The translations under genes and the position numbers were made by a program. Positions 3,384 through 54,550 of a DNA stretch of 64,000 nt are shown here, in pieces. Origin of the DNA: a virus; the IMG/VR virus record IMGVR_UViG_3300014911_000002, positions 25,380-89,379 of that record; one strand, given 5' to 3'. Positions within the stretch are counted from its first letter, which is position 1. The number at the start of each line of letters is the position of its first letter. Below the pieces are notes generated by a model. It ran no database searches and was not told the DNA's origin. It saw only the letters and a program-made list of their open reading frames with translations.

Positions 3384-4070
3384 TCACCTGATAATGCATC
3401 TCTGAACGTAATATTCTGCACGTTTTTTAATCATTTGTAACTCATCGTCTGTGAATTCTCTAATGTTCTTTGCACGTTTCGGATTCAATGCTTTCGTAAA
3501 TTTAAACCGCTGGAGAGCATATAATCTTGCTCCCTCGATATATTTCGCTATCTCCTCGATATCATCCATATCAAGAATTCCTCTGCCGATGGTCGTTCTA
3601 AATTCATAATCTAGATTGCTGTTCATCAACAGCCTTATGCTTTCCTTTATATCATTTATATTTACATCAGCACAAGCGATGTCTCGGTATTTCCCAAATG
3701 GACCTTTTATATCCATAGCTATGTAATCGACTAAATCCTGTTCGATAAGTTCCTCCAGCATTCTAGGATTAGAACCATTTGTATCAAGTTTGATTAGAAA
3801 ACCCATCTCCTTGATTTTCTTCAGGAAAGAAGGGAGATCTTCTTGCAATGTTGGCTCGCCACCTGTTATTACAACACCACTGATTTTCCTACGACGTCTG
3901 CCCAAGAAATCTAATATCTCTTTCTCGGAATAGACACCATCTTTTTGAGCTATAAGTTCTGGATTATGACAATAAAAACAACGGAAATTACATCCCTGAG
4001 TGAATATAACCGCTGCAATCTTCCCTGGATAGTCAATCAGGGAGGTCTTAAGAAGGCCGCCTATTCTCAT
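3384..4070 (-). CDS. nrdG: Anaerobic ribonucleotide reductase activating protein, radical SAM
   Basis: 228 residues. GCNFRCFYCHNPEL near residue 27 is the CxxxCxxC radical SAM motif in the form seen in NrdG and other glycyl-radical activases; the GGEPTLQ motif near 72 contacts SAM. The protein should generate the glycyl radical on NrdD, whose gene lies directly upstream and overlaps by 4 bp (ATGA). The opening GGLLKTSLIDYPGKIAAVIF is characteristic of the NrdG/anaerobic-activase family in archaea. Together the pair gives the virus an oxygen-sensitive source of dNTPs and points to a strictly anaerobic host. Confidence 0.92.
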   Translation of the reverse strand: MRIGGLLKTSLIDYPGKIAAVIFTQGCNFRCFYCHNPELIAQKDGVYSEKEILDFLGRRRRKISGVVITGGEPTLQEDLPSFLKKIKEMGFLIKLDTNGSNPRMLEELIEQDLVDYIAMDIKGPFGKYRDIACADVNINDIKESIRLLMNSNLDYEFRTTIGRGILDMDDIEEIAKYIEGARLYALQRFKFTKALNPKRAKNIREFTDDELQMIKKRAEYYVQRCIIR

Positions 4071-6163: not shown

Positions 6164-6172
6164 GGATATCAC

Positions 6173-21019: not shown

Positions 21020-21135
21020 AAGGCTTGAAATATAAATGCGAAAAATAAAAGCATACAAAGAAATACCGAACTTATTACATACGACGAAACTATGCAGAGA
21101 CCGATAATTCCGAGAAGGAATAAAATTTTATTCAT
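21016..21135 (-). CDS. Small membrane peptide, 39 aa
   Basis: Almost wholly hydrophobic (MNKILFLLGIIGLCIVSSYV, then a second run ending in FIFQAL). It overlaps the RadA-like stop by 8 bp and the XPF start by 3 bp (ATGA), so it is placed to be translated in series. One or two membrane helices are likely. It may instead act mainly as a translational bridge. Confidence 0.5.
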   Translation of the reverse strand: MNKILFLLGIIGLCIVSSYVISSVFLCMLLFFAFIFQAL

Positions 21136-22165
21136 CGACAAACCCCAAATCCAAAGCCAATCTAACTGGATATTTTGCCCAATCTGTTTTCACATCTGGT
21201 CTTCGTACAAGCTGAACTCGCCTTGCTTCATCACCGAATTTTTCTTTGGCTTTTTTATCTGGCGGAAGAATTTGCAAAATATATTTCGAATGATAGATTA
21301 TGGCATCTCCACCGTATGGTCTCCCCAAGTCCCGCATGTTTGTTGGGTCTATCGACACATGATGAGTTATTACTGTGCATAGATTATATACCTTTGAGAG
21401 CTTTAGAAGTCTCCCATAAATTCTGTTGACTATTGAAGACCTTGCTGGTAGATTGAAGGTTTCATGTCCTATGCTTTCTTTCAAAGGAGTGGTCAAAGAA
21501 TCTATTGCGAGGAAAGTTGCATTTTCCAATTGTTTCCTAATGGGCATATCCTTCATTGGAAAGAATCTTACGGAATATTTCCCAGCCTTTTCAGAAAGTT
21601 CAAGTTGAACGTTATATCCGAAGAGTTTACACAATGCTTCAAGGGATTCCATAACTGGGTCATCCATCGTAGATATAAATATAAAGTGCTTTTTTATATC
21701 TTCATCCGAAACCTCATAGCGTTTTGCCAATTTATATGCTATTGACATAATATCTTTTCGCCTATTGCCTTCGGTATCGATGTATATAGAGTCCATGCCA
21801 GTCTTTTTGATATTTGCAACTGCAAGCATAACTGATAACCAAGTCTTACCAACCGATGGTAGCCCAGTGATTGCCGTTGGTATGCCGTAAGGGAAGCCAC
21901 CACCCATAAGCTCATCTATGGTAAGGCAACCTGTACGCAAATTTTCTAACTTATCACGCATATTTTTCAACCTCTCAAAATCAATATTGTTGAGAGCAAA
22001 CATAATGTGCTTACATGCAGACTTTTTAAATGTAAAGTATGGACATGAACACCAAGCATCTGCATATTCTCCATCAATGGAAACAACATACTCACGTCCA
22101 GAATCTGATTTTATAAGCAGGACTGCTATACCATTCAGACCATAAACTTTTTCCAGAATTTTCAT
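21128..22165 (-). CDS. SWIM zinc-finger/RadA-like recombinase ATPase fusion
   Basis: About 345 residues from ATG 22165 (GTG at 22183 is the longer choice). Residues 38-53 contain C-x-C-x9-C-x-H (Cys39, Cys41, Cys51, His53), the SWIM zinc motif. From ~80 the protein is a RecA/RadA-type ATPase: CLTIDELMGGGFPYGIPTAI, Walker A GLPSVGKT (101-108), a Walker B-like FLAIDSLTTPL, and THHVSIDPTNMRDLGRPYGG near the C-terminus, as in RadA/RadB. It lacks the N-terminal HhH domain of RadA; the SWIM domain takes its place. Probable strand exchange or recombination mediator. Confidence 0.85.
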   Translation of the reverse strand: MKILEKVYGLNGIAVLLIKSDSGREYVVSIDGEYADAWCSCPYFTFKKSACKHIMFALNNIDFERLKNMRDKLENLRTGCLTIDELMGGGFPYGIPTAITGLPSVGKTWLSVMLAVANIKKTGMDSIYIDTEGNRRKDIMSIAYKLAKRYEVSDEDIKKHFIFISTMDDPVMESLEALCKLFGYNVQLELSEKAGKYSVRFFPMKDMPIRKQLENATFLAIDSLTTPLKESIGHETFNLPARSSIVNRIYGRLLKLSKVYNLCTVITHHVSIDPTNMRDLGRPYGGDAIIYHSKYILQILPPDKKAKEKFGDEARRVQLVRRPDVKTDWAKYPVRLALDLGFVDE

Positions 22166-22204
22166 AATATCGAATATTATCACCTATTGGTATCTATTTC
22201 GAGA

Positions 22205-28858: not shown

Positions 28859-29833
28859 TTAATCCCATCCACCTTTTAATGCTAATGCAAGAAATCCATT
28901 TATGTTTGAAGATAAGCCCAATCTTTCTCTATATTCAAATTGAGTTTCTTTCGGGAAGTTGATACCGAAATATTCTGCAATCATTTCGCAAATATCCGAA
29001 TTTAATCTCGCATTGAGAATTTTGTTAACACCATATCGCTGGTGCTCAACCAATAATCTTGTGAGATTTACAGCATCATAAGCCTTCTTCTTATCTGTTT
29101 CTATCAATCTTACAAATGGGTTATCATCCTTAATGTGAGATGCCACATTATAGGTTGCCTCAACTATGAATCTGAAGTGAGAAAACAAAGATGGTGTATC
29201 AAATATCCTTATTTCTATAGTCGCTGGTCTTTTTAATCGTTCTCGTGTATCTTCTGCCTGTGGTCTTCTATAAGCTATGTCGGCATATTTATTTCCGCCT
29301 CTTATAAAATTCTGAAATTCCAGATAAGGCTTGCCTATATGGCGAGAATCCAGTAACCTTTTTGACCCATGAATCAAGTCTATTTCAAAATTCTTTGTAT
29401 GGTCTGCTATTGATAATGCAAATGGGTAAATGCCCATAGCTCTTCTCCAATATTCTTGTTCCGTTGCTTTTGGATATGAAACATGAATATGCAATCCGCA
29501 GAACACTTGCCCATCTCTCAATATAGAAGTGGCAGGAATTACAGCTATGCCTTGCTTAATGAAAACAGACCTAGCCTGTTTATAAAGTTGCTTTACTTCT
29601 TCTATCGCATCTTCAGGATTATCAAACGGTCTGCTCCTTATCTCAAGTTGATATGGATAATAGTCTTTCCAGACTTGTCTCGGGAGATATTCTTCAAGGA
29701 TTGCCATTACCTTCTCGTTGCTATCCACAAGGTGTTTAGATTGCAAATCAAAAAGAGTTAATTCAAGCTCCACCCCGATAGTTGTTTTTCTCCCTTTCCG
29801 CTCAAACCAATCTGAAAAATTTATTTCACGCAT
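28859..29833 (-). CDS. Amidoligase (glutamine-synthetase/GCS-fold COOH-NH2 ligase)
   Basis: About 324 residues from ATG 29833. TIGVELELTLFD (residues 18-29) gives the metal-binding Glu pair near the N-terminus, YQLEIRSRPF (61-70) another Glu, GLHIHVS (113-119) the His motif, and TIEIRIFDTPSLFSHFRFIV the late Arg-containing strand. This order is that of glutamate-cysteine-ligase-like amidoligases, which join a carboxylate to an amine using ATP. It overlaps the amidotransferase gene upstream and abuts the one downstream, so ammonia could be its amine substrate or a peptide could be tailored. Confidence 0.8.
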   Translation of the reverse strand: MREINFSDWFERKGRKTTIGVELELTLFDLQSKHLVDSNEKVMAILEEYLPRQVWKDYYPYQLEIRSRPFDNPEDAIEEVKQLYKQARSVFIKQGIAVIPATSILRDGQVFCGLHIHVSYPKATEQEYWRRAMGIYPFALSIADHTKNFEIDLIHGSKRLLDSRHIGKPYLEFQNFIRGGNKYADIAYRRPQAEDTRERLKRPATIEIRIFDTPSLFSHFRFIVEATYNVASHIKDDNPFVRLIETDKKKAYDAVNLTRLLVEHQRYGVNKILNARLNSDICEMIAEYFGINFPKETQFEYRERLGLSSNINGFLALALKGGWD

Positions 29834-31214
29834 TTTCAACCCTCAATTTTAATGCAGTCATTATCTGTATTAATTTATAGAGAGCATCCGAAGAATCTGA
29901 TAACTCTATTTCAATACTCCAATCTTTTCGTAAGCTTAATCCATATTTCTCAAATAAGCGTTTTATAAATGGTTTTTGCCCAAAGATTAATCTAACATAC
30001 TCTGAAGAACCACCTCTTCCACTTCTTATGAAATATATGGCTGTGCCTTCGAGGAAACGAGTAAAGTTTTCGATATTCTCCTTTAGCACATCTCTTGAAT
30101 CTCTCCTAAATACATAACGAAGGGATGGAAGAATACTCTTTAATTCAGACATTCTGATTTCCAGAAGAACCTCTGCGGTATTTGGTTCGAAATATACGCA
30201 TTCTTGTGCAAGCTGTTCATGTTCTGCAATACGATTATAAAGTATTGGTGAAGAAATTATCAACTCAATTATTCCATCTTCCCAAATCATAGCCTCAATG
30301 ATATCATCTGGGCGATACTTTTTCCAATCATCCAATATACTTTTCAATTGCTCTAAATCTTCATCTTTAGTGTCTATTCCATCTAGAGTATCTGAACTAC
30401 TGTAAGAACTATATGAATTTGGAAGACCTCTATAAGTGGTTACATTTACACTATAGCTTGTTTCAAATTCGCCTACTTCTTTTATGCCTTCCTCATCTAT
30501 CATATAGATTGTGTTTTCCTTAATGTCTGGAATATCGGAATATCTCAATTTTTTATCATACACGTTATCAATATGCCTCTGTTCCGAAGCAAATAATAAA
30601 CATCTGTTTCGTTTATCTATATAATAGCATATTGGATTGCTATGGCGGAAGAGATAAACTGTTTCAGATTTCTTATGATATAGCCAGCAGGCATAAGAGC
30701 CCGATAACAGCTTTGTTGTTTCCTGAATAGCTTTCACAACATCTTTATATTTATCATAGAAATGCTGAATCAGATGAATAATAACTGCGGAATCACATTC
30801 TGATTCATAATCTAGCTTAAACATTTCTTTGAGTTCCTTATCATTTGATATTGTGCCATTATGTGCCAGAATGAAATCCTTTGTCATAAATGGATGGTTA
30901 TTCTCATTATTATCTGTTGAGCCAGATGTTGGTGCACGAGTATGACCAAGAAAGATGGAGACACCATCAAGAGAAATTTCGCCTTGTAAATCTTTGAAAA
31001 ACGAAGTTACCGAGCCTTTTATTTTAAACAAATGCCCCTTTATATCCTTTCGTTTTTCGGTTACATAATAATTATATTCTGGATTGAGAACATAGAATCC
31101 GAATGCACTTCTTCCACGAGATTCAATCTCTTCAAGCAGTTTTATCGCCCTAATCTTCATACATTTTGGAAATTCGGTTTTGTCTAATCGTATTACTCCA
31201 CAAATTCCACACAT
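29826..31214 (-). CDS. Class II glutamine amidotransferase (first copy)
   Basis: 462 residues. Starts MCGICGVIRL with the nucleophilic Cys2; FLGHTRAPTSGSTDNNENNH carries the glutamine-binding Arg; FILAHNGTISND the Asn-Gly oxyanion pair; ESECDSAVIIHL completes the pattern. The C-terminal ~200 residues are not the synthetase or isomerase domain of known asparagine synthetases or GlmS; they are unrecognised, with several helices and a Ser/Tyr-rich linker (LPNSYSSYSSSDTLD). Presumably delivers ammonia to an amidoligase partner encoded next to it. Confidence 0.88.
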   Translation of the reverse strand: MCGICGVIRLDKTEFPKCMKIRAIKLLEEIESRGRSAFGFYVLNPEYNYYVTEKRKDIKGHLFKIKGSVTSFFKDLQGEISLDGVSIFLGHTRAPTSGSTDNNENNHPFMTKDFILAHNGTISNDKELKEMFKLDYESECDSAVIIHLIQHFYDKYKDVVKAIQETTKLLSGSYACWLYHKKSETVYLFRHSNPICYYIDKRNRCLLFASEQRHIDNVYDKKLRYSDIPDIKENTIYMIDEEGIKEVGEFETSYSVNVTTYRGLPNSYSSYSSSDTLDGIDTKDEDLEQLKSILDDWKKYRPDDIIEAMIWEDGIIELIISSPILYNRIAEHEQLAQECVYFEPNTAEVLLEIRMSELKSILPSLRYVFRRDSRDVLKENIENFTRFLEGTAIYFIRSGRGGSSEYVRLIFGQKPFIKRLFEKYGLSLRKDWSIEIELSDSSDALYKLIQIMTALKLRVENA

Positions 31215-43467: not shown

Positions 43468-44913
43468 ATGGATGAATATTTCAGGAAAGTCTTAAGATAT
43501 GCAAACGACCCAGTTGCGTTCGCTCGCGATATAATTGGCATTACTGTTAAAAAATTTCATGCTGAATGGTTACGGGCGTTTGAACGCCACAAATATCTCA
43601 TATTGCTTGCTCCAAGAGACCATGGGAAAACCGTTATAGTAGGAACATATATCATTTGGAGAATTGTTAGGGACCCAGATGTCAGGATTCTTATTTGTAC
43701 AGTAAATCAATCGAAAGCTAGTGACATGATGTTTTTCATTCAATATCATCTTGAACATAATGAGAAGCTCATTGAGTATTTCGGTGAACAAAAAGGCGAT
43801 GGGGAATGGTCGAAGACGGAATTGAGGGTCAAGCGGAGAGGAAAAACTGGAATGGCCTTTCAGACACCAACACTTCAGGTTCTTGGTGTTGGTTCATCTA
43901 TGATTTCAGCTCACTATGATTTAATTATCCTTGACGATGTTGTGGATGAAAACAATTCCAAGACTCGATATAGAAGGGAAGCATTGGAATCATGGTACAA
44001 TTCAACGCTTATGGAGATGCTCGTTCCAACTGGTCAGATAATAGTGATTGGAACTAGGTGGCATGAAGATGATCTCTATAATTATCTTGCCAAAAAACCC
44101 GGATATGTTGTAAAGGTTTACAAAGCCATCATTAAGGAACGTACTGAGGACCAAGAGCCTGTAGTTCTTTGGCCGGAACGATATCCTTATGATGATGAGC
44201 AAGCTAAGAAATTGGGTTTACCCGAAGGAATTAAAACCCTTAAATTCATTCGTGAACACATTGGTGAGACAAAATTTGCAATGCAGTATCAGAACGAAAT
44301 TCGCAAATTTGAGGGTTCAAAAATTAAGCCGGATTGGATTGATGCCGCAATAGAACGTTGGAGAAAATTGGATGTAATCCCTGGGAATCTTAAGCGATAT
44401 ATTGGGGTTGACTTCGCTTCACCTGGCAAAGAAACTGATTATTTTGTCATTTGTGTTATCGGAATCGATGAGTATTCCGATATTTATGTCCTCGATTGTT
44501 TGAGGACAAAAGCCTCTTTATTCAGACAATTCGAGCTCATCAAAGAAATGGATGCTCGATGGAACCCAGTAAAAATCGGACTAGAGGCGACAGCTCAACA
44601 GAAGATAATAACAGACCAGCTGCAAGAAATTTCAACTATGCCTATAGTTCCAATAAAATCATCACATGTGAATGACAGAGATACGCGCGTTGATCGCTTA
44701 TCGATATTGTTTGAAACAAATAGAATCTATCTCAATCCTGAATTAGGACATCTCATTGATGAGTTATATGCATATCCGAGATCTGCACACGATGATTGTA
44801 TTGATGCGTTGACATTTGCAATACAAGCGGCATCATCTGGGAAGCCTGTAGATTGGAAATGGGTGGTGAATACTACTAAAACATCTAAGCTTTGGAATGT
44901 CAAGCTCATGTAG
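43468..44913 (+). CDS. terL: Terminase large subunit
   Basis: 481 residues. ATPase part: ILLAPRDHGKT near residue 45 is the viral-type Walker A, LIILDDVVDE near 153 Walker B, and IVIGTRWHEDDL near 190 the coupling motif. Nuclease part (RNase H fold): YIGVDFASPG near 311, IGLEATAQQ near 373 and SAHDDCIDALTFAI near 445 supply the metal-binding acids. It drives DNA into the prohead and cuts the concatemer. Full length with no frameshift. Best anchor for placing the virus in a phylogeny. Confidence 0.95.
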   Translation: MDEYFRKVLRYANDPVAFARDIIGITVKKFHAEWLRAFERHKYLILLAPRDHGKTVIVGTYIIWRIVRDPDVRILICTVNQSKASDMMFFIQYHLEHNEKLIEYFGEQKGDGEWSKTELRVKRRGKTGMAFQTPTLQVLGVGSSMISAHYDLIILDDVVDENNSKTRYRREALESWYNSTLMEMLVPTGQIIVIGTRWHEDDLYNYLAKKPGYVVKVYKAIIKERTEDQEPVVLWPERYPYDDEQAKKLGLPEGIKTLKFIREHIGETKFAMQYQNEIRKFEGSKIKPDWIDAAIERWRKLDVIPGNLKRYIGVDFASPGKETDYFVICVIGIDEYSDIYVLDCLRTKASLFRQFELIKEMDARWNPVKIGLEATAQQKIITDQLQEISTMPIVPIKSSHVNDRDTRVDRLSILFETNRIYLNPELGHLIDELYAYPRSAHDDCIDALTFAIQAASSGKPVDWKWVVNTTKTSKLWNVKLM

Positions 44914-44944: not shown

Positions 44945-45193
44945 ATGGACCAAATATTTATAGGCGGAAAGCCACTAGCCAGCTATGTAACAGCTGGTCT
45001 GATATCGATAAGCAAAAACAAGTCTGTTAAGATTGTTGGAAGAGGAAGACATGTAAAGACAGCAATAGACGTTGCAGAGATCCTGAAAAGACATATGAAG
45101 AATCCAGAAACAAAAGTAGAGATAGGCTCTGAGCAATTTGACGAGAGGTACGTATCGACAATAGAAATCGAGTTGGTTGAAAAGGGCGAATAA
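44945..45193 (+). CDS. Alba-family chromatin protein
   Basis: 82 residues. IFIGGKPLASYVTAGLISIS, then KSVKIVGRGRHVKTAIDVAE and RYVSTIEIELVEK match archaeal Alba along the whole length, including the Gly-Arg-Gly-Arg loop and the first-strand Ile-Gly-x-Lys-Pro. The acetylated Lys of Sulfolobus Alba (in GKKP/VMNY) falls at the Lys of GGKP here. Alba binds double-stranded DNA and RNA. Its place between terminase and portal genes suggests expression late, perhaps to condense genome DNA. GGGGGG upstream is an unusual ribosome site. Confidence 0.9.
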   Translation: MDQIFIGGKPLASYVTAGLISISKNKSVKIVGRGRHVKTAIDVAEILKRHMKNPETKVEIGSEQFDERYVSTIEIELVEKGE

Positions 45194-45197
45194 ATAT

Positions 45198-46451
45198 ATG
45201 GCTCTATTCCGCAATCCTTTCTCCGGTAAAAGAATTTCTGTATTTGAGCGAGATGATGGTAGCCCCAAAACTCTAGTTTATACATCAGGGAGGAGAAGCC
45301 CTCTATTTTCCTCTCGCGGTAGGAGTCTTTCCACACTCAATAAATACTGGCAGTTTTATGAAGGAGAAAGTACAGTATTCGCTGCGGTTAACGCCATAGC
45401 GTGGAACACAATTATGGTTGGCTTTACCATTCACTCTTCCGATGATAAGGCAGCTGCGCTTATCAGAGACTATGCCAAAAGATTGAGACTTCAGGCTCAT
45501 CTCCTTGATGCCATGATATATGCACTAGTCTTCGGAGATGCTTTCATAGAGAAAATTTATAATCGAAAGGGCGATATATCAAGATTGAAAAATGTTGATC
45601 CCAGAACGATGCAGATAAATTTCAACGAATATGGAGACATAGAAAGCTATCAGCAAGTAATTTCTACAAAGAAGGGCCCATTGATAGAACCTTCTAAAAT
45701 AATTCATCTTCGTCTTTTCCCAAGACCATCATCTCCATATGGTATATCTCTTCTAGCCGCTTCTGTTGATACAATAGAAAGGAAGATTAGAACCGATGAA
45801 GCCCTTACGATGGCGATGATTAGACACGGAACGCCCAAATACGATATAACCGTAAAGACACCAGAAGGAGGTCAAGTACCACCGGAAAGTGTGCTTGAAC
45901 AGATATCAGAGAAGCTATCAAATCTGCACGAGGAAAATGAGGTTGTCCATCCAGATGTAATAGAGATAGATACGATAGACGAACGCGGTATCCCAGGTGT
46001 AGAAGAATATTATAACTATTTCCAGACTCAGTTGGTTATTGGTCTACTCTGTCCTGAAGAAGCATTAGGTCTTGGTCGGGGTTCGACAGAGGCAACTGCC
46101 AGAATTAAAGCGGTCATGTTTGAGAGAATGATTAAATCATTCCAAATGAGAATCTCCGAAATTATAGAGCAAGAGCTTTTTAATGAAATACTCGAGAAAA
46201 ATGGTTTCGAACCAAATACTGTTTCTATGAGATTTAGAAGTGTTACAGAGGAAGATGAAGCAACGAAGGCCAAATGGCTCGGCAATCTTCTTCGTGGTTA
46301 TTCCAGACGTGAGGCTATGCCGTTTACAATTAATGAAATAAGAGCCATGTTCGGCTTCCCCCCAATTGAGGAAGGCGATATGTTGATAAACCCACCTTTA
46401 ATAAAAAAGAGTGAAGATGACGACGAAGACGTTGCACCTTCCGCTGATTAA
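45198..46451 (+). CDS. Portal protein
   Basis: 417 residues from ATG 45198; the longer reading begins inside the Alba gene. QFYEGESTVFAAVNAIAWNT and the central IEPSKIIHLRLFPRPSSPYG followed by ISLLAASVDTIERKIRTDEA match phage portal proteins of the PBSX/HK97 groups: beta-rich wing, then helical stem. It forms the dodecameric ring at one vertex, through which terminase packs DNA. The C-terminus is acidic (KKSEDDDEDVAPSAD). Confidence 0.85.
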   Translation: MALFRNPFSGKRISVFERDDGSPKTLVYTSGRRSPLFSSRGRSLSTLNKYWQFYEGESTVFAAVNAIAWNTIMVGFTIHSSDDKAAALIRDYAKRLRLQAHLLDAMIYALVFGDAFIEKIYNRKGDISRLKNVDPRTMQINFNEYGDIESYQQVISTKKGPLIEPSKIIHLRLFPRPSSPYGISLLAASVDTIERKIRTDEALTMAMIRHGTPKYDITVKTPEGGQVPPESVLEQISEKLSNLHEENEVVHPDVIEIDTIDERGIPGVEEYYNYFQTQLVIGLLCPEEALGLGRGSTEATARIKAVMFERMIKSFQMRISEIIEQELFNEILEKNGFEPNTVSMRFRSVTEEDEATKAKWLGNLLRGYSRREAMPFTINEIRAMFGFPPIEEGDMLINPPLIKKSEDDDEDVAPSAD

Positions 46452-46941
46452 ATTTGAAACTGGTCCAAAATATCTTGCAAAATCTGCTGATTGGCGAATA
46501 TATAATGATGCCGTAATTCTTGCTCCAGGTGTATGGACAGATGCGGCATCGAATCTCAAGACGTATTTTCCTCCAGAGGAGTTGAAGAAGGCAGCAACTA
46601 GATGGAAGGTAAACTATCTCAATGTGAATCATGAAATAAGAAATCCCCTTCTTAGAATAGGGTATGTCAAAAATACTTATTGGGATGGCGAGCGAATAAG
46701 AGGCGACCTTTATATTCTACCGACAACCACTGCAGGCAGGGACATCATCTCGCTTATAGATGCCAATATGGTTAATTGGCTTTCGCCAGAGCTGATATCT
46801 GAAGATAAATGGGACTCAAAGAAAGGCATTCATGTGGCTACAGACATTGAATTTATTGGATGCGCAGTGGTTTTACATCCTGCTTGTCCGAAGGCAAAAA
46901 TAAGAGAGGAATTTGCAGATTATGTCGGATATTTCTATTGA
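46417..46941 (+). CDS. Prohead protease-like protein (XkdF/S78 type), 174 aa
   Basis: Start at ATG 46417, inside the portal 3' end. VNHEIRNPLLRIGYVKNTYW near residue 62 looks like the His-containing strand of herpes/HK97-type capsid proteases, TTAGRDIISLIDANMVNWLS near 100 the Ser-containing part, and TDIEFIGCAVVLHPACPKAK the late strand before the domain ends. A second such domain occurs in the 51310 protein, so the division of labour is unclear; one may be inactive. Confidence 0.65.
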   Translation: MTTKTLHLPLIKFETGPKYLAKSADWRIYNDAVILAPGVWTDAASNLKTYFPPEELKKAATRWKVNYLNVNHEIRNPLLRIGYVKNTYWDGERIRGDLYILPTTTAGRDIISLIDANMVNWLSPELISEDKWDSKKGIHVATDIEFIGCAVVLHPACPKAKIREEFADYVGYFY

Positions 46942-47230
46942 TGGCCCAATACGAGTAAAGGGATGCCCATATTGCGAACTTCTGAATGACGATTCCAACA
47001 TAGTTTACAAACCACGCAAAAACCTGGACGAATGCTCATTTGTTATAGTTAAGTGTCCACTTACCGGGAAAGATGTTGTAGTCGCTTCAGAACATGTAGA
47101 AACATTACCTCGTGGCATTTACAATCTTGCTATATATCATGCAAAGAAATATAAAAATACGAATGTAGGTATTAAAGTCGATCGAAAACGTGTGTCCGAT
47201 CATTGGCACGCTTACATTGAATTGATATAA
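46922..47230 (+). CDS. Hypothetical protein, 102 aa, HIT-like features
   Basis: CPYCEL near residue 15 gives a possible zinc knuckle. Later VVVASEHVETLPRGIYNLAI and DRKRVSDHWHAYIEL are reminiscent of HIT-fold proteins, but the final HxHxH is only H-W-H-A-Y, so the catalytic His is missing. Aprataxin, a HIT protein, repairs failed ligations, and the next gene is a ligase. The link is suggestive only. Confidence 0.45.
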   Translation: MSDISIDGPIRVKGCPYCELLNDDSNIVYKPRKNLDECSFVIVKCPLTGKDVVVASEHVETLPRGIYNLAIYHAKKYKNTNVGIKVDRKRVSDHWHAYIELI

Positions 47231-49938
47231 TGCCGTTGAAAATTAATGTTTTAGGTGGCTGGGCATCATATAATCTTCCGAAAAAGTATGGGAAGCATTT
47301 CTCCCTTCTCTTAGATACTGGGAAGCATAAAATATGGATAGATCCTGCGGTATCGCTCAAAGAGGATGTTGATGCAATTATAGTAACCCAATCTGATGAG
47401 GATCATTATATTAAGCTCGATTCATACTTAGAAAAACATCCTGATGTTCCTGTCTATTCAACTAGGGCTGTTATTAATAAGATTAACATTTCCCATCGGA
47501 AAAATCTGAAGGCTGTAAGAAAGCCACTTAAATTTGATGGGCTTGAAATTATCTTTATGGCCGTCCCGCATAAGGTTAATGTCCCTGCGGTCGCCTTGAA
47601 AATACGATATAGAGGTCATGTCATAGGCATAGTTCCAGAATTTAATTTTCTTGGCGAACAAGAAATCGAATATCTCAAGAATGCTGTATTGATTGCTGGA
47701 GTTGGCGAATATGAAAAAAGGAAGCCAAATGATACAAAAGCTACATTTAAAGAACTAATTGAATATGCTAACGGGGAGTTATCCCCTAAGAGGTTGTATT
47801 TAACAAATCTTAGAAAAGCCACATTCGACAAGCACAAGAGAGATATTTTAAAAGAATTGAAGAAATTTAACGGCGGAATTCTCCTTGATGGTGCCAGTTT
47901 GACCTTTAATGGGGATGAGGTTAAAACTGAAGGTCTATATCTCATTTCACCACATGCTACTCTAATCTACGAAGGCTTAAAAACAATGATTCTCAAGAGT
48001 AGGAAATTCGATATGGCTGGAAAGAAATTCATTCTTTGTGATGACACATATGCATACGGGACAATTGAGCTGAATGAGCCTGAAGAAATCAATGAAGCAC
48101 AATTCGAGGAATATGCTGATGAACATCTAGTCACGAAAGAAGAGATGAAGAAATGGGGTTGGAATTTCCCCTTGTATGCATATCGAATAAAGGCCTTTAT
48201 ACCGTACGAGGAGCCTATAGAGCTTTCACTTCCCAAAGGCATCCAAACCTTCGTTCGAGATGTGGAACAATATTTCGAGAAACTTCATTTACAAGAATTT
48301 AGAAGCACCGGAGTTGATTATGATATTAGGCATATAAATGAACGGTGGAGAGAAGCAATAGCGGATCTGAGGTATTTGGGCAATAGTGGATATCCTCGCC
48401 TCAAGCGTGGTGAGAAATGGGGTGATTGGACTCTTGAGGATGTTCTAAAATACTTTGCAAAACTTGTAGATGCATTGAGATCTGTGCACTTCCCAATCAT
48501 TCCGCCGTACAACGAGAAACTTTATCGTGAGTATACAGGAAAGGACCCCAAAAAAGCGAAAAAATCTTCATATTGGAAATGCTATCGTGAGGCTGAAAAA
48601 TACATGAAATCTAAACCACCAAAGGATATTGCAGAGGCGAAGGAGTGGGATAAGAAACGAAGGCAGAAGATTTCTTTGAGGAAGAAAGCAAGAAGTCTTA
48701 AAATTGGTTATTACTCAGAAGCAAAGCCATATTACAGAGGCTATTTCCAGGAGCTTGCTGATGAATTAAAAGCGATAGGCTGGGATGAAGAAAAACTTCT
48801 TGTCGATTGTAAATGGGATGGCCTGCGGATGACAATTGGCAAGGTTAATGGGAAAGGTTTTGCATACGTTGACCCCGAGGATGTCAAGGAAAAGAATCCG
48901 AATGTATCGAATCGGATACCTGCAATAATAAAGGAGATTGAAGAAAACTTTCCTGACGATACGGTTCTTGACGGTGAATTTCTTGCCATCCATCCCAATG
49001 GAAAAGAGATGCTTCACAGAACCGTAGCAAATTCTCTTTTAAACTCTAAGGCTTCTGGTGAAGAATTGGAGCGTTATGCAATCATTGTTGCCTTTGATGT
49101 TATATTCTACGATGGCCTCGATTTGCGTGATCAACCACTTCTTGAAAGACTTGAATATCTTTCTAGACTTAAGCCAACTAAGCACATTTGGATTGAACGA
49201 ATTTCCACCTCTCTTGACAAGAAGGCAGATGGATATATTTGCAACGGCAGCGATATCGATTGCATAATGAAGGCTGCAGATATCATAGCTAGTGGAAAGA
49301 ATGGGAGACCGAAATTCTGTGCTGAAGGGGTCATGCTAAAACGCTTGGACGGACCATACGAATATCCGCAGAATCATTACTGGATGAAAGTGAAATTCTA
49401 TCATGAGCTTGATTTGCGGGTTATTAACAAAAAATTAGTCAAAGGTTCCAAGGACGTTTATAATTATTATCTCGGGTATGATACACCAAGGGAGTATGCC
49501 GAAGCGTACCTTAGTATGACAACAAAAGACTGGTATGGTAAAGTTCATTGCTTCAAGAATGGCAAAGTTATAGCCGCTGGAAAGGATTGCAAGAAATTTT
49601 TAAACGATAATAATGTACTGTTTGTAACATTAATGGGCAAAACAGATAATCATAAGGAGGTATTGCCAATCAAGATTGGTGATATCATTCGAATTGCAGC
49701 AGAAGAGGTTTTGAAATTTGAGAACCCTAAATTTCCAGAATATCCAAGATACTCATTCTATATCGGTAGAGTATTAGAGCCCATACCAGAAAAAGACATC
49801 ACCGACTCTCTTGAGACCATTGATAAACTTTCTTCTTTTGAGCCACAAAGAATACCAATTGAAGAACTTCAACATATTACACAAGATATTGCCAAGATGG
49901 GTGATGTATATGTTAGGATTATCAGATTCCATCAATGA
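47230..49938 (+). CDS. MBL-fold domain fused to ATP-dependent DNA ligase
   Basis: 902 residues. 1-~230: metallo-beta-lactamase fold (LLLDTGKHKIWIDPAV, AIIVTQSDEDHY, VIGIVPEFNFLG), but the HxHxDH site reads Q54-S-D56-E-D58-H59, so metal binding is probably reduced. ~230-500: helical linker. ~510-880: ligase with all motifs: CKWDGLRM (Lys528, AMP-binding), VLDGEFLAIHP, VAFDVIFYDG, AEGVMLKRLDGPY and WMKVKFYHELDL, then an OB fold. It should seal nicks or ends. Placed between portal and capsid genes rather than with the replication genes. In bacteria, MBL exonuclease, ligase and phosphoesterase genes cluster for end repair. Confidence 0.88.
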   Translation: MPLKINVLGGWASYNLPKKYGKHFSLLLDTGKHKIWIDPAVSLKEDVDAIIVTQSDEDHYIKLDSYLEKHPDVPVYSTRAVINKINISHRKNLKAVRKPLKFDGLEIIFMAVPHKVNVPAVALKIRYRGHVIGIVPEFNFLGEQEIEYLKNAVLIAGVGEYEKRKPNDTKATFKELIEYANGELSPKRLYLTNLRKATFDKHKRDILKELKKFNGGILLDGASLTFNGDEVKTEGLYLISPHATLIYEGLKTMILKSRKFDMAGKKFILCDDTYAYGTIELNEPEEINEAQFEEYADEHLVTKEEMKKWGWNFPLYAYRIKAFIPYEEPIELSLPKGIQTFVRDVEQYFEKLHLQEFRSTGVDYDIRHINERWREAIADLRYLGNSGYPRLKRGEKWGDWTLEDVLKYFAKLVDALRSVHFPIIPPYNEKLYREYTGKDPKKAKKSSYWKCYREAEKYMKSKPPKDIAEAKEWDKKRRQKISLRKKARSLKIGYYSEAKPYYRGYFQELADELKAIGWDEEKLLVDCKWDGLRMTIGKVNGKGFAYVDPEDVKEKNPNVSNRIPAIIKEIEENFPDDTVLDGEFLAIHPNGKEMLHRTVANSLLNSKASGEELERYAIIVAFDVIFYDGLDLRDQPLLERLEYLSRLKPTKHIWIERISTSLDKKADGYICNGSDIDCIMKAADIIASGKNGRPKFCAEGVMLKRLDGPYEYPQNHYWMKVKFYHELDLRVINKKLVKGSKDVYNYYLGYDTPREYAEAYLSMTTKDWYGKVHCFKNGKVIAAGKDCKKFLNDNNVLFVTLMGKTDNHKEVLPIKIGDIIRIAAEEVLKFENPKFPEYPRYSFYIGRVLEPIPEKDITDSLETIDKLSSFEPQRIPIEELQHITQDIAKMGDVYVRIIRFHQ

Positions 49939-50942
49939 AGGTATTAATTGAATACCAGGACGGAACAGTTGATTTTGTGGATGATAACAAGCTCGAAAAG
50001 CTTACCCTCCTTGAATACACTGAACTTTATCACTCGAAAAGCTTACCACAAACTTGGCAACGGATATTGAAAGACAAGGCTGTGACAAAGAAAGATATTT
50101 GCGAATGGTTGAAATTGAAACATATTCCCGAGGACATTTTTGAGCAGCTCAGAATGAAGTTGCAGCCATTGCCAAAAATCTTCTACGTTGATTATGATGA
50201 AGGTATAGCTTGGGCTCAAATGCATATTAGAGGATTAAATCCAGATGACACGAAAAAATATCAGGAAGGCAAACTTTCATTTGCCAAACTTATCGAAAAC
50301 CATAGTATTCACATAGATTTGCGTATGAAGTTTAAAAAGGCTTTCGTCCAATGGGTTATAACTCAAGACCATATACCAGATTATTTCGATACTATAATAG
50401 GTAGAGTAGATAAAAAGACTGGTAATGCAAGTAAAGGTCTTGCGATAGTAAAGCCATCTGCTGAAGAGCCATCTCGGGAAGTTAAAAGTAAAGATAAGGA
50501 GCTAATAATAGGTCCTGAAGATGCAAAACTAATTGAAAAGTATGTTCTCTTTGATAAATCATACATTATTCCAGCAGGAGACGTTGGTGCGAGTCCTTAC
50601 AAGGACGCATATATGTGCGCAATATGGATTGGTAAAGTTAAGGCGGGAGTGCAAAGGCCAGACTTGCATGAATATTTCCTCTATCCAGGATCTGATATGC
50701 CAAAACGAAATCAAGAATTATTCAACGGTCGGTTTATAATCCGGTGCTTTAAGGCTGGTAGCGATAAACGCTGGTGGGTTTGGAAAGCATATAATGATCC
50801 TTATCCTATGGATTCCATACTTCACGCGGATTGTGGGTATTATTATCCTATCAAGGCGGAGAAGTTAGAGAAGTTTGGAAGGGAAGCATATAGGGAAATG
50901 TCTGTTAAGAAGTTTTCAAAGAAACTATCATGTGGAACATGA
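49935..50942 (+). CDS. LigD-type 3'-phosphoesterase (PE) domain protein
   Basis: 335 residues, overlapping the ligase by 4 bp. ENHSIHIDLRM (121-131) is the HxDxR core of the PE domain found in bacterial LigD and in stand-alone archaeal PE proteins. The C-terminal FNGRFIIRCFKAG followed by RWWVWKAYNDPYP corresponds to the PE closing motif (KGRFxLxR...WxLxK). The N-terminal ~80 residues are unassigned. PE enzymes clean 3' ends by removing ribonucleotides or phosphate before ligation. With the ligase, this makes a two-part NHEJ-like end-processing unit; no Ku gene is in the window. Confidence 0.7.
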   Translation: MKVLIEYQDGTVDFVDDNKLEKLTLLEYTELYHSKSLPQTWQRILKDKAVTKKDICEWLKLKHIPEDIFEQLRMKLQPLPKIFYVDYDEGIAWAQMHIRGLNPDDTKKYQEGKLSFAKLIENHSIHIDLRMKFKKAFVQWVITQDHIPDYFDTIIGRVDKKTGNASKGLAIVKPSAEEPSREVKSKDKELIIGPEDAKLIEKYVLFDKSYIIPAGDVGASPYKDAYMCAIWIGKVKAGVQRPDLHEYFLYPGSDMPKRNQELFNGRFIIRCFKAGSDKRWWVWKAYNDPYPMDSILHADCGYYYPIKAEKLEKFGREAYREMSVKKFSKKLSCGT

Positions 50943-51010
50943 ACGGAGTCGGGAAAGCAATAGAAGAGCTCAAAGTTTTGTATTTTAAGATTCTTAAAGA
51001 GTTGGAATAA
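50930..51010 (+). CDS. Small helical peptide, 26 aa
   Basis: MWNMNGVGKAIEELKVLYFK begins it. The ATG overlaps the PE-protein stop region, and no strong ribosome site is seen. One amphipathic helix; low certainty. Confidence 0.3.
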   Translation: MWNMNGVGKAIEELKVLYFKILKELE

Positions 51011-51016
51011 ATAGTT

Positions 51017-51307
51017 ATGACTCTCGAAGAGAATTTCCGAGAGTTTTATGGTAGAGTCATTGCTACTCTGGAATCAATCAACAAGAACGAGGATGAGCTT
51101 GCGGAGAGGATTAGAATTCTTGAAAAAAAGATCGATAAAAAGACCGATGAAATATGGTCGGCTGTAAATTCTATTAGAAATACTTCTATTAAGGATATTG
51201 CGACAGACATTTCTGCCCTTAAAATGAAGATTTCCATTCTTTATTGGCTGTTTGGAATTATGTTCACTTTCCTGTTGGGTATCTTGGGGAAAATATTGCT
51301 CGGCTGA
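51017..51307 (+). CDS. Coiled-coil protein with C-terminal membrane helix (XhlA-like layout), 96 aa
   Basis: Residues 1-65 are a coiled coil (EDELAERIRILEKKIDKKTD) and 72-92 a single hydrophobic helix (ILYWLFGIMFTFLLGILGKI). Bacterial XhlA-type lysis partners have this layout. In the context of the head genes it might tether capsid assembly to the membrane. No sequence identity is claimed. Confidence 0.55.
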   Translation: MTLEENFREFYGRVIATLESINKNEDELAERIRILEKKIDKKTDEIWSAVNSIRNTSIKDIATDISALKMKISILYWLFGIMFTFLLGILGKILLG

Positions 51308-51309
51308 TT

Positions 51310-53073
51310 ATGGATTTAGAGAAAATTAAAATGTTAACTAAGAAGGGAGAGCTTGAATACGCTCCGATTCCTCCCTCCGGAAGAGGTACGAACGATAAAA
51401 AACTAAAATTAAAAGACATTCTCCCGAAATTGAAACCATTTTCTGTGAGAAAGCCCGTTGCATATATAGTTGGTTCGCTTGCTGTCCATGGTGAGAGTGA
51501 TAATGATATAGATATAGTCGTTAGGGGCGAAGATTGGTCTGATGAGCAGAAAACCGCTTTTGACTTTAGAATCTTTCGAATGTTTGCCGATATACTTGGC
51601 GTTCCCTATGACGATGTTCCGAAATACGTTTCAATTCATTATTCGAATGAAGGCCCCTTTACATCCTATGTCCCAATATATGAAGAAACGTTTCTTCCAA
51701 TAGAAAATCCCCAGATTATTCATATGTCGAAGTCAAAATCATCTGAAGTTTCATTTAATATTAGAGGGAATTTTGACGTATTCTCCAATGGAAAACAAAA
51801 ATCAAGACGCATAATTGCTGGTTATGCTTCTGTCGCTGTAGTGGACAAAGATAATGAACTTATACCAGTAGATGTGCTTCGTGATGCCATCAAAACACTT
51901 CTCAATGACGAATTTTACGCAAATGTAATGCTAAAGCATAGGAATATCCAAATTGGACGTATCCTCAAGGAATATAACGGTTTGAAAACTCATGTTGATG
52001 ATAAGGGTTTATTTATTGTTGCTGAGATTCGTGACGATTTGAAAATTGCTGACAAAGTTTGGGAGGATATTCTTGCTGGAAAGCTAAATTCATTCTCCAT
52101 CGCTGGTGAAGCGCTATTAAGTCATCGAGAGTGTGATGATACTAAATGCTACACTGTTGTGGATAAGATAAATCTCTATGAAGTTTCGATATGCGAAGCT
52201 CCTGCAAACCCGCTTTCAGGCTTTATAGTTATATCCAAATCAGATGATGTATGTGGATGTTCGAAGGAATGCGATAAAATGGCTGAAGAGATTTTGGAAG
52301 ATAATGTATTAAAGAACGACGAGGAGACAGGGGAAGAGCCTACAGAAGAGACGACCGAGGAAGCGAAATCTGAAGATAACTCGGAATTTGAGGCATGGAA
52401 AGAAGCAATAGAGCGCAAGCTTGAAAGTCTCACAAAAATAGTCTCCGAGCTAGCAAACAAGCAAGACGAAGATAACGACGAAGATGATGAGGAAGAAAAA
52501 GCCGAGAAGTCAGAGGAGACTCCCGAAGAAACAGACACTAAAGACGAAGAGAAAGAAAAGGAAGAGAAAGCTGGTGGGCTAATTGCTGCAATCAAAGATA
52601 TGTTAGCTCAGATAATAGCAGATACAAAGAATAAAGAAATAAAAGAGAAATTAAATGCACTCATGTCATTGGTAGAGAATCTAAGAGGCAAAGGATATCC
52701 ATATCCCTATCCAATGCCGAGTAATTATCCCTATCCATCGAAATACCCTTATCCATCGAAATATCCATACCCAACAAAATATCCATATCCAGCGAAGAGT
52801 GAAGATTGGCATAAGATGGTAGTTGATGCAATTGATGATCTGTGGGAGAAATATTCTGCATTGAAATCAGAGAGCGATATGGCTAAGGAGATAGAAGAGT
52901 TGAAACTAGAGATAAAAGCCAAGGATGACCAGATTAAAGCATTTCAGAAAAGATTGGAAATACTTGAGAAGTCAGAAAAGCCTCCAGAGACTATAAATCC
53001 AGATGAGGAGATCTCAGACGAAGAGGAAGTTAGTGACATAGTTATTAGTCACGGTGTTATTTACAAGAAATAG
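51310..53073 (+). CDS. Nucleotidyltransferase-like / XkdF-type protease / scaffold fusion
   Basis: 587 residues from ATG 51310 (an in-frame TTG at 51244 would extend it into the coiled-coil gene). Residues 50-75: GSLAVHGESDNDIDIVV, the GS...DxD signature of pol-beta-type nucleotidyltransferases (Gly55, Ser56, Asp66, Asp68). About 155-310: IIAGYASVAVVDKDNELIPV ... FSIAGEALLSHRECDDTKCY ... YEVSICEAPANPLSGF, as in XkdF-type capsid maturation proteases. 320-460: acidic coiled coil, scaffold-like. 465-500: Tyr-Pro repeats. C-terminus: coiled coil. The scaffold is probably cut out by the protease during head maturation. Confidence 0.75.
   Translation: MDLEKIKMLTKKGELEYAPIPPSGRGTNDKKLKLKDILPKLKPFSVRKPVAYIVGSLAVHGESDNDIDIVVRGEDWSDEQKTAFDFRIFRMFADILGVPYDDVPKYVSIHYSNEGPFTSYVPIYEETFLPIENPQIIHMSKSKSSEVSFNIRGNFDVFSNGKQKSRRIIAGYASVAVVDKDNELIPVDVLRDAIKTLLNDEFYANVMLKHRNIQIGRILKEYNGLKTHVDDKGLFIVAEIRDDLKIADKVWEDILAGKLNSFSIAGEALLSHRECDDTKCYTVVDKINLYEVSICEAPANPLSGFIVISKSDDVCGCSKECDKMAEEILEDNVLKNDEETGEEPTEETTEEAKSEDNSEFEAWKEAIERKLESLTKIVSELANKQDEDNDEDDEEEKAEKSEETPEETDTKDEEKEKEEKAGGLIAAIKDMLAQIIADTKNKEIKEKLNALMSLVENLRGKGYPYPYPMPSNYPYPSKYPYPSKYPYPTKYPYPAKSEDWHKMVVDAIDDLWEKYSALKSESDMAKEIEELKLEIKAKDDQIKAFQKRLEILEKSEKPPETINPDEEISDEEEVSDIVISHGVIYKK
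52690..52797 (+). repeat. Coding tandem repeat, KYPYPS units
   Basis: About five imperfect 18-bp units inside the scaffold region, each coding for Tyr-Pro-Tyr-Pro plus Ser/Thr/Ala-Lys. The third-base changes between units (tacccttatcca, tatccatac) show the repeat is older than a simple slip. Proline-tyrosine spacers are extended and flexible. Confidence 0.7.
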
Positions 53074-53138: not shown

Positions 53139-53519
53139 ATGGCCTTTATAACAATAGAAGATGATATAGGGATTCAGCTTGGGACATTCGCATACAATTT
53201 CAAGGCATCTGGCAACATCTTGAAAGGGCAAGCCGTAAGGATGATAGCTGACGGTGCTGTTACTCCCGTATCCGCTTCTTCTCAAACAGCGATAGGTGTT
53301 GCTGATTATGATGCAAGCCACGGCACTATGGTTGCCATATATTGCGGAGGTAATATAGTAAGATGCGGCTTGTCCGGTTCGTCTGCACCAAGTGTTGGTG
53401 ACCAAGTTGGTGCATTCAAAGATGGTTATCTTTCGCACGAGACCGGAGGAAGGATCTGCGGAATAGTTGTAGAGGCACCATCTTCAAATCCAGGAGTAGG
53501 AAAGGTGCTTCTCATTTAA
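53139..53519 (+). CDS. Head decoration protein (DUF2190-like)
   Basis: 126 residues, beta-rich, with FNFKASGNILKGQAVRMIAD-like pattern (YNFKASGNILKGQAVRM) and DGAVTPVSASSQTAIGVADY, then GGNIVRCGLSGSSAPSVGDQ. These match the DUF2190 group of capsid-stabilising proteins, encoded just upstream of many major capsid genes, as here. Probably glued on the capsid surface at three-fold or pseudo-three-fold sites. Confidence 0.75.
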   Translation: MAFITIEDDIGIQLGTFAYNFKASGNILKGQAVRMIADGAVTPVSASSQTAIGVADYDASHGTMVAIYCGGNIVRCGLSGSSAPSVGDQVGAFKDGYLSHETGGRICGIVVEAPSSNPGVGKVLLI

Positions 53520-53572: not shown

Positions 53573-54550
53573 ATGAGTAAGCTTACAAGACTACTCCAGC
53601 TTGCATATGCAGGCAACAGCGAGAGAACCAAACTGCTGAATGATCCCCACGTGATTCACGATCTTGGAGGTAAAAACTCCAAGACCTATAAGACTCTCCT
53701 TCAGTCTAATGCAATAAACGAGACCACATTGCTGCAAGAAGAAGTCTGGAAGACAGTAGTTGAAGGTGCCGAGCCTTTCAAGTGCTTTAGAGATGTTTTG
53801 CCAATCATCAATACTGATTCTTATTCAGTGAGAGTTGTAACTGGTGAATCTGGCGCATATGCCCAGGATATAGCTGAAGGTGCTGAAATACCGATAGATA
53901 CATCATCCTTCTCAAAGACAGATATTACAATAAAGAAGATTGGAACCAGACCACTGATAACAAACGAACTCATAGAGGATGCATTATTCGATGTAGTCGA
54001 GTTGGAGCTTAAAAAGGCTGGTGCAAGACTGGAAAACAAGTTAAACAGAGACTGTTTGCAAGCCATATTATCAGGTATGGATGGCATAACCGATGTGGAC
54101 CCCGCAGGCACAAATCTGGCCGTATCCGATTTGGCCACAGCAAGAGCCTTAGTGGAGGCAGAGGGAAGAATGCCTGACACTTTGATAACTCATCCTATCG
54201 CCGAGGGTCAGCTATTAAAAGACTCCAATTTAGTCTATGTCGCATATGCCGGTCAGGGCAGAACCCTTGAAACAGGCGAGTTGCCAAGAATACTTGGTCT
54301 GAAGCCATACACACTTTCCGTAACAGTCGAAGATGGATTTACATATTATTGGGATGGCACGGACGCTGCAAACCACTATTATGCTTTGGTCCTCGACTCC
54401 AAGAACACTGCTTACATAGCGATGAGAAGAGACATAACAATCGAAAGGTATGACGACCCAATTCACGATCTACTTGGAATATCTTGTACAATGAGATATG
54501 GTGTTGCGGTAGTTGACGATAAGGCTGGAGTAAGAATTCTGGCAAAGTAA
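53573..54550 (+). CDS. Major capsid protein, HK97 fold
   Basis: 325 residues. After an N-terminal arm, ETTLLQEEVWKTVVEGAEPF and DSYSVRVVTGESGAYAQDIA lead into the E-loop region (EGAEIPIDTSSFSKTDITIK), then the spine helix (FDVVELELKKAGARLENKLN) and the P-domain and A-domain (ITHPIAEGQLLKD; ERYDDPIHDLLGISCTMRYG). The order and length fit HK97-type capsid proteins of archaeal siphoviruses. Codons are richer in G+C than in the accessory genes, as expected for heavy expression. GGTG lies just ahead of the ATG. Confidence 0.88.
   Translation: MSKLTRLLQLAYAGNSERTKLLNDPHVIHDLGGKNSKTYKTLLQSNAINETTLLQEEVWKTVVEGAEPFKCFRDVLPIINTDSYSVRVVTGESGAYAQDIAEGAEIPIDTSSFSKTDITIKKIGTRPLITNELIEDALFDVVELELKKAGARLENKLNRDCLQAILSGMDGITDVDPAGTNLAVSDLATARALVEAEGRMPDTLITHPIAEGQLLKDSNLVYVAYAGQGRTLETGELPRILGLKPYTLSVTVEDGFTYYWDGTDAANHYYALVLDSKNTAYIAMRRDITIERYDDPIHDLLGISCTMRYGVAVVDDKAGVRILAK

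Follow-up and report, generated by a model that had tools for sequence, protein, structure and literature searches.

The closest described relatives of the system treated here come from DNA end joining and from the biology of tailed-virus particles. Bacterial LigD and the split archaeal nonhomologous end joining (NHEJ) set of Methanocella (Ku, Pol, PE and Lig) provide a ligase, a 3'-phosphoesterase (PE) and a nucleotide-transferring domain, in proteins that are split or fused and variable in order. Polyvalent proteins are large multidomain proteins of tailed viruses that are predicted to enter the host together with the viral DNA, and their domains include a Pol-beta nucleotidyltransferase (Iyer et al. 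2017, PMC5512222). A locus that combines features of both lies in a 64,000-nucleotide stretch (the window) of an 89,379-base virus record, IMG/VR IMGVR_UViG_3300014911_000002. The + strand head operon of the window encodes, in order, a terminase, a portal protein, a small S78-like protease, a 105-amino acid (aa) protein, a multidomain ligase protein (P1), a LigD-type PE protein (P2), a 96-aa protein, a fusion of a nucleotidyltransferase (NT) with a prohead protease and scaffold (P3), a cement-like protein and an HK97-type capsid protein (Table 1). An earlier inspection of the same DNA, here called the sequence-only reading, had placed a ligase (LIG), a PE protein and an NT-protease in this order between portal and capsid genes, and had interpreted them as end-processing enzymes assembled into, or acting on, the packaged genome. 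The observation is confirmed, with the three genes located and ordered as described between genes that have portal and capsid family matches, and the interpretation is partly supported by the analysis below.

The LIG-PE-NT trio recurs beside viral head genes

IMG/VR was scanned using only the PE domain, without regard to gene context, and profiles for the other domains were applied to the recovered loci afterwards. The scan returned 40 loci, which together with the window and earlier relatives form 24 PE clusters at 75% identity. LIG and NT are each present in 23/24 of these clusters and a head gene in 22/24, and an S78/XkdF protease was detected by profile in 15/24. No ligase core was detected in L048-L051 (L-numbers denote related loci and contigs). 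The IMG/VR relatives of P1, P2 and P3 keep the full order from terminase to capsid. A gene-order survey of related contigs was one preset test on which the sequence-only reading could have failed; the trio is kept beside head genes, and the reading was not refuted.

An independent set of 390 genomes from one archaeal phylum contains PE matches in 5 genomes, at 6 places. Head genes or a protease/scaffold-like gene adjoin PE in 5/5 of contigs L069-L073 from this set, and the sixth place (G011 C7) is contig L012, which had already been found. Among the five is L071, whose 51.8 kb include genes for terminase, portal, MuF, an NT-PE-XkdF fusion and capsid. The searches also covered cultured-phage and plasmid collections, and ANMV-1 (L010) was the sole carrier among 50,697 phage records. 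Two metagenome-assembled genome (MAG) bins hold related contigs, one assigned to Thermoplasmata and one to Planctomycetota. Because 5/390 genomes of the Thermoplasmata MAG's phylum carry the module, part of the group is likely to have archaeal hosts; the window itself comes from a tailed virus that probably infects archaea. Hydrothermal sediment is among the sources of related contigs. TBP and PolB were not found in the virus record.

The three domains are shuffled in order across the relatives yet kept together, and they are repeatedly joined in fusion proteins of 700-1900 aa. LIG-PE fusions are found in L007 and L012, NT-PE-XkdF in the L049 group and L071, and L008 encodes MBL-LIG-PE plus NT-X-XkdF, where MBL is a metallo-beta-lactamase-like domain. 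A single protein with the order PDG-NT-PE-LIG-XkdF, where PDG is a pyrimidine-dimer-glycosylase-like domain, is present in L037, L047 and L055. The domain string PDG-radical SAM-NT-LIG-DUF6884-PE-protease is a single protein in L009 (2531-7690) and L058 (3230-7951). In ANMV-1, the gene immediately after that of the portal encodes NT-LIG-PE as a single protein of 866 aa; the gene that follows (L010 5868-9368) encodes a 1,166-aa cysteine-rich repeat protein. Accessory domains among the relatives include PF03013 PDG-like (E 2.3e-6 in L009), D12 DNA methyltransferase, PNK3P and 2H phosphoesterase. The radical SAM and DUF6884 domains of the L009 and L058 fusions are possible agents of DNA base chemistry.

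Four relatives have intein-like insertions at conserved enzyme motifs (Table 1). Inteins typically sit at conserved sites of important proteins, and their position at conserved motifs of LIG, PE and NT therefore argues for active enzymes.

P2 has the predicted fold of a LigD-type phosphoesterase

The window PE protein alone gave no identifying match in Pfam, PHROGs, NCBIfam or the PDB, and profiles and fold comparison were needed. A 29-sequence PE profile returned three PDB matches at E<=1, all of them LigD PE proteins and all weak (E 0.03-0.9). An AlphaFold2 model of PE (predicted local distance difference test score, 78) was compared by Foldseek with 350,542 chains. The first match was the archaeal LigD PE 3p43 (E 3e-4, prob 1.00, target TM 0.72) and the second was the Methanocella NHEJ PE 5dmp (prob 1.00). 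The relative L009 matches Pfam LigD_N with E 8.5e-4, and among predicted structures of viral proteins in a library, a single one matched PE significantly. The HxDxR motif, followed across 29 sequences, and a W are invariant in the PE alignment, and a nine-sequence alignment places the first metal-binding His within an HxRG motif. The Mn-binding His, His-x-Asp and Arg are thus all conserved. The modeled fold supports P2 as a LigD-type phosphoesterase, and the call made from sequence passes structural comparison. Tandem second LigD_N-like stretches follow the first PE domain at L049 6042-9968 and L055 1320-5510.

Residue roles have been described for LigD PE, and in the Pseudomonas aeruginosa enzyme His84 and Tyr88 contact the phosphate and are essential (PMC8656161). 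At the positions that align with these residues most viral PE members have E/Q and W, but the family has a different, nearly invariant HEY motif.

P1 combines a DNA ligase core with three further domains

P1 consists of an MBL-fold domain, an ASCH/PUA-like domain, a helical domain X and a ligase core that contains KWDG. The core is that of an ATP-dependent DNA ligase, with a PF01068 domain, KxDG and the downstream motifs. KWDG and the other conserved ligase motif residues are retained in 26-28 of 28 aligned ligase domains, which bears out the earlier claim of a ligase with its catalytic motifs. The window protein scores higher against general DNA ligase models and against Archaeoglobus LIG than against LigD-type models, and the ligase is not specifically LigD-like. 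The likeness to LigD and the archaeal NHEJ set put forward by the sequence-only reading is thus weaker for the ligase. The reading is supported in that the three activities travel together and with head genes in many distant viruses, and in their repeated fusion with one another and with prohead proteases. Ku was said to be missing, and in agreement PF02735 was not found in the window's record or in 10 related records, which may be incomplete. In L015 (6025-9987), the ligase protein encoded before the PE gene is extended at its C-terminus by a further domain that weakly resembles ATP-grasp (GARS_A).

The metal motif of the MBL domain is degenerate in the window lineage, where the alignment has TQSDEDH in place of the canonical HxHxDH of L035, L044 and L069; because of this change, nuclease activity of the domain in the window virus is doubtful. 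An Artemis-like MBL nuclease that would complete an NHEJ set was considered and is not claimed for the window, in which two metal-binding positions are changed, though relatives keep them. The second domain matches TTHA0113, a family that we take to be ASCH/PUA. Domain X had no PDB match in the profile search. Its hhalign score against the PDG set is 97% with the bridging sequence L042 and falls to 37-42% without it, and kinship to the PDG-like PF03013 domain is for this reason called only possible.

P3 joins a minimal nucleotidyltransferase to a prohead protease and scaffold

The N-terminal domain of P3 has the GS/GG...DxD signature and NTase fold of the Pol-beta nucleotidyltransferase superfamily, and its DxD motif is present without exception in the 31 sequences compared. 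The top PDB matches of the NT profile are DNA polymerase beta (E 0.008) and terminal deoxynucleotidyltransferase (E 0.15). The best matches in a Foldseek search are MNT antitoxin nucleotidyltransferases, with prob 0.84 but E 0.09. The domain comprises a minimal palm-like unit only. Its motifs and profiles support a putative minimal Pol-beta-superfamily nucleotidyltransferase to which no substrate is assigned. Of what had been proposed for this domain, superfamily membership stands on the DxD motif and the polymerase beta and terminal transferase matches, and nucleotide addition to DNA is conjectural; the best fold matches are protein-AMPylating MNT antitoxins.

The fusion of NT to a capsid protease and scaffold, also proposed earlier, is borne out by an S78 domain and a scaffold-like tail in P3. 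An S78 domain beside a scaffold and the major capsid gene is the arrangement of an HK97-type prohead protease. The small S78-like protease that adjoins the portal gene and precedes the enzyme block is a second such protease in addition to that of P3, and a related domain ends proteins of L009, L058 and L059 (p176-like; hhalign 91.8%). This second protease gene, the MBL-like, ASCH/PUA-like and X domains of the ligase gene, and the 96-aa gene between PE and NT were not part of the sequence-only reading.

Gene starts in the block were said to overlap. P1 overlaps the preceding stop by 1 base (47230), and P2 overlaps the P1 stop by 4 bases (ATGA, 49935). At P3 the overlap is probably lost: ATG 51310 is more likely the start than the mechanically assigned TTG 51244, and therefore P3 probably does not overlap the preceding 96-aa gene.

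Enzymes and structural proteins differ in divergence between the window and L002

Identity between the window and L002 is 80% for LIG, 85% for PE and 82% for NT versus 58% for terminase, 59% for capsid, 50% for portal and 48% for MBL. This contrast could reflect exchange of the module. In closer pairs the ratio of nonsynonymous to synonymous differences (pN/pS) is ~0.1-0.2 for the enzymes; because synonymous sites are saturated, only pN/pS bounds and no dN/dS values are given.

Feature map of the locus and neighboring genes

The coordinates of the block and of the intein-like insertions are collected in Table 1. The (-) strand half of the window encodes an anaerobic ribonucleotide reductase (4067-6172), a glutamate-cysteine-ligase-like protein (28859-29839) and a class II glutamine amidotransferase-like protein (29826-31214). 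A SWIM zinc finger and a Rad51/RecA-like ATPase are combined in one protein at 21128-22183 (-).

Table 1. Features of the head operon in the window and intein-like insertions in related loci. Coordinates are those of the window unless a locus is named.
Feature	Position	Strand	Evidence or remark
Terminase large subunit	43468..44913	+	phrog_38 E 8.5e-95; context
Portal protein, 5' border of block	45177..46451	+	PF06074 E 6.5e-17, phrog_12 E 5.6e-24
Small S78-like prohead protease homologue	46411..46941	+	PF04586 E 0.0025
105-aa protein, function unassigned, order-conserved	46913..47230	+	Stop overlaps ligase start
P1, 902-aa multidomain ligase protein	47230..49938	+	Order kept in related contigs
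P1, metallo-beta-lactamase-fold domain	47230..47916	+	PF12706 E 9.7e-5; profile to 1zkp E 3e-11, RNase J E 6e-7
P1, ASCH/PUA-like domain (presumed family name)	47920..48273	+	Matches TTHA0113; profile to 1wk2/2dp9 E 4e-5
P1, domain X, helical	48259..48684	+	Possibly related to PF03013 domain replacing it in other members
P1, ATP-dependent DNA ligase core and OB-like region	48793..49845	+	Active-site motif KWDG; PF01068 E 2.4e-17, residues 520-722
P2, 335-aa LigD-type 3'-phosphoesterase protein (by predicted fold)	49935..50942	+	PE domain ~50184-50939
96-aa coiled-coil/membrane-segment protein between PE and NT-protease	51017..51307	+	Conserved in order
P3, nucleotidyltransferase-prohead protease-scaffold fusion	51310..53073	+	Conserved in related contigs
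P3, putative minimal Pol-beta-superfamily nucleotidyltransferase domain	51334..51771	+	GS...DIDI motif
P3, S78 prohead protease domain	51805..52224	+	PF04586 E 2.8e-11, TIGR01543 E 7.6e-13
P3, charged coiled-coil scaffold-like tail	52225..53073	+	Sequence; phrog_80 alignment reaches residue 476
Decoration/cement-like protein	53139..53519	+	PF09956 E 1.3e-4, phrog_673 E 4e-8; context
HK97-type major capsid protein, 3' border	53573..54550	+	TIGR01554 E 2e-18
Intein-like insertion in ligase	L004 5576-9361		Also in L035
Intein-like insertion in PE	L031 2829-7028		Also in L035, between HIRGRSV and SVHIDFR
Intein-like insertion in NT	L036 262-4290		
Intein-bearing stretches of L035 (ligase, PE)	L035 1993-6690 and 6837-9845		

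Discussion

From the gene block, its domain identities, the conserved trio with its fusions and motif residues, and the absence of Ku from the records examined, we infer a head-linked DNA end-repair module, in which enzymes incorporated in the head or borne by it would mend viral DNA at packaging or at entry. Our judgment on this interpretation is evenly divided. LIG, PE and NT would be produced from the head operon. NT as a physical part of the protease-scaffold protein that would fill the procapsid, and in relatives all three enzymes as one polypeptide ending in a protease, would be built into the procapsid and then trimmed free by the prohead protease. The enzymes would stay with the packaged genome and enter the cell with it. 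There, PE would clear 3' ends that are blocked, NT would provide nucleotide addition or fill-in, and sealing of nicks or joining of ends would fall to the ligase, with the outcome that damage is mended and/or incoming DNA is circularised without Ku. The packaging of NT, and of LIG and PE where they are fused, as well as release by the protease and delivery with the DNA are suggested by analogy, because head targeting and trimming by the prohead protease are known for the internal proteins of T4, for ejection proteins of the phiKZ type and for DarA of P1 (PMC5694885, PMC12810830). The PF03013, D12 DNA methyltransferase and PNK3P accessory domains are DNA- or end-directed, which counts for end repair. 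A more far-reaching proposal is a Ku-independent, virion-carried end-joining machine, packaged via the prohead protease/scaffold in several tailed-virus lineages, at least some of them archaeal, that would circularise or mend the genome on entry and constitute previously undescribed genome-entry machinery. This proposal is tentative, and we regard it as possible rather than probable.

Several observations weigh against a head-borne end-repair function. LIG, PE and NT are known here from their genes, from which their presence in the virion is predicted. NT is minimal, and its best fold matches modify proteins by AMPylation. The positions in PE that align with His84 and Tyr88 of LigD are not conserved and are mostly E/Q and W, and the MBL metal motif is altered in the window. 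The survey profiles for domains other than PE were derived iteratively from the same loci, and the contrast in identity between enzymes and structural proteins in the window-L002 pair is absent from closer pairs, with synonymous divergence saturated. In the window only NT is fused to the protease; the ligase and PE are separate genes whose products could act in the cytoplasm. For this last reason the main rival is late-expressed DNA repair without encapsidation, in which the head operon provides timing, nicks and ends of replicated DNA are mended in the cytoplasm shortly before or during packaging, and the NT-protease fusion does no more than link repair to the procapsid as it assembles. Roles in replication and packaging are common for phage DNA ligases, and because the whole record has a single PF01068 ligase, P1 may supply the only viral ligase. 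A replication ligase, however, need not remain beside the portal and protease across many lineages, and the single polypeptides of L037, L047, L055, L009 and L058 end in a prohead protease that would carry the whole set into the procapsid. We consider this explanation unlikely.

The proteins could also be injected polyvalent effectors directed against the host, which repair nucleic acids (DNA or RNA) after cleavage by host defence or AMPylate host proteins through NT rather than repair the virus's own ends. The polyvalent-protein concept (PMC5512222) accommodates such a role and the MNT-like fold of NT agrees with it, as do the PNK3P and 2H phosphoesterase domains of L054, the weak RNA_ligase match of the L039 ligase, and the radical SAM, DUF6884 and methyltransferase domains joined to some members. 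The LIG+NT+PE core is constant, whereas the accessory domains vary, and this pattern therefore fits one shared reaction pathway; in addition, the ligase is of the DNA ligase family and the enzymes that PE matches are those of NHEJ. A host-directed role is thus judged improbable. Catalytically dead domains retained as structural relics in the head scaffold would account for the degenerate MBL motif of the window lineage and for the members in which the ligase core went undetected. Even among distant members there is hardly any variation in the ligase lysine, NT DxD and PE HxDxR, inteins occupy conserved enzyme motifs and pN/pS is low, all of which makes inert relics hardly credible.

What is known of how tailed viruses protect and close their genomes at entry comes from a few phages dependent on host ligase or recombination. 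The recurrence of the trio in many distant viruses suggests that certain viruses equip their genome-delivering particle with a DNA-repair kit. If end repair is physically coupled to the head protease, virions could carry their own repair kit, and LigD-like enzymes in viral records without Ku would be explained. The module also serves as a guide for interpreting further fusions to prohead proteases, among them the methyltransferase-XkdF proteins found in cultured phages.

Comparison with known systems

The PE fold matches enzymes of both LigD and the archaeal NHEJ set (3p43 and 5dmp). The viral module differs from these systems in its location in a head operon, in a ligase of more general type, in a PE that lacks the aligned His84/Tyr88, and in the absence of detected Ku. 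Its NT is Pol-beta-type, while theirs is an archaeo-eukaryotic primase (AEP) polymerase; no search was aimed at AEP in the record. Mycobacteriophages Omega and Corndog, as cited in PMC7719229, likewise rely on NHEJ factors for successful infection (Pitcher et al. 2006), and the title of that study names genome circularisation. According to this source those phages bring Ku and borrow the host LigD, whereas the virus described here would bring LigD-like activities with no Ku detected. By analogy, they offer a functional precedent for viral end joining.

Head proteins of T4, phiKZ/SPN3US and P1 (Alt, internal proteins (IPs), gp47/gp86, DarA/Hdf) are ejected or expected to be ejected with the DNA (PMC5694885, PMC12810830). 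They lack the LIG-PE-NT set, and their encapsidation is experimental, whereas here it is predicted. ANMV-1 (KP703175) shares the trio, as one NT-LIG-PE protein beside the portal; this virus is also uncultivated, and its protein is annotated only as an ATP-dependent DNA ligase and has no protease fusion. The DNA methyltransferase-XkdF proteins of PAK_P1-like Pseudomonas phages and Rhizobium phage RHph_Y1_11 (phrog_1530) share the fusion of a DNA-acting enzyme to a prohead protease, but the enzyme is a methyltransferase and not an end-repair enzyme. These cultured phages might serve in the laboratory as models for enzymes carried in heads.

A search of the published literature, partial in coverage, gave no account of a LIG-PE-NT head module, and an earlier mention in the Burroughs and Aravind RNA-repair survey is possible. 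The nearest published concept is that of polyvalent proteins (PMC5512222), in which this module is not described; DNA ligase and NHEJ are unmentioned there, and few examples are from archaea. Common to both are disparate enzymatic domains in one viral polypeptide, as seen in P1, P3 and the fusions of the relatives, and a peptidase that is always C-terminal, assemblin-like in polyvalent proteins and XkdF in the relatives here. The distinguishing feature of the present family is a constant LIG-PE-NT core that adjoins or is fused to S78/XkdF prohead proteases.

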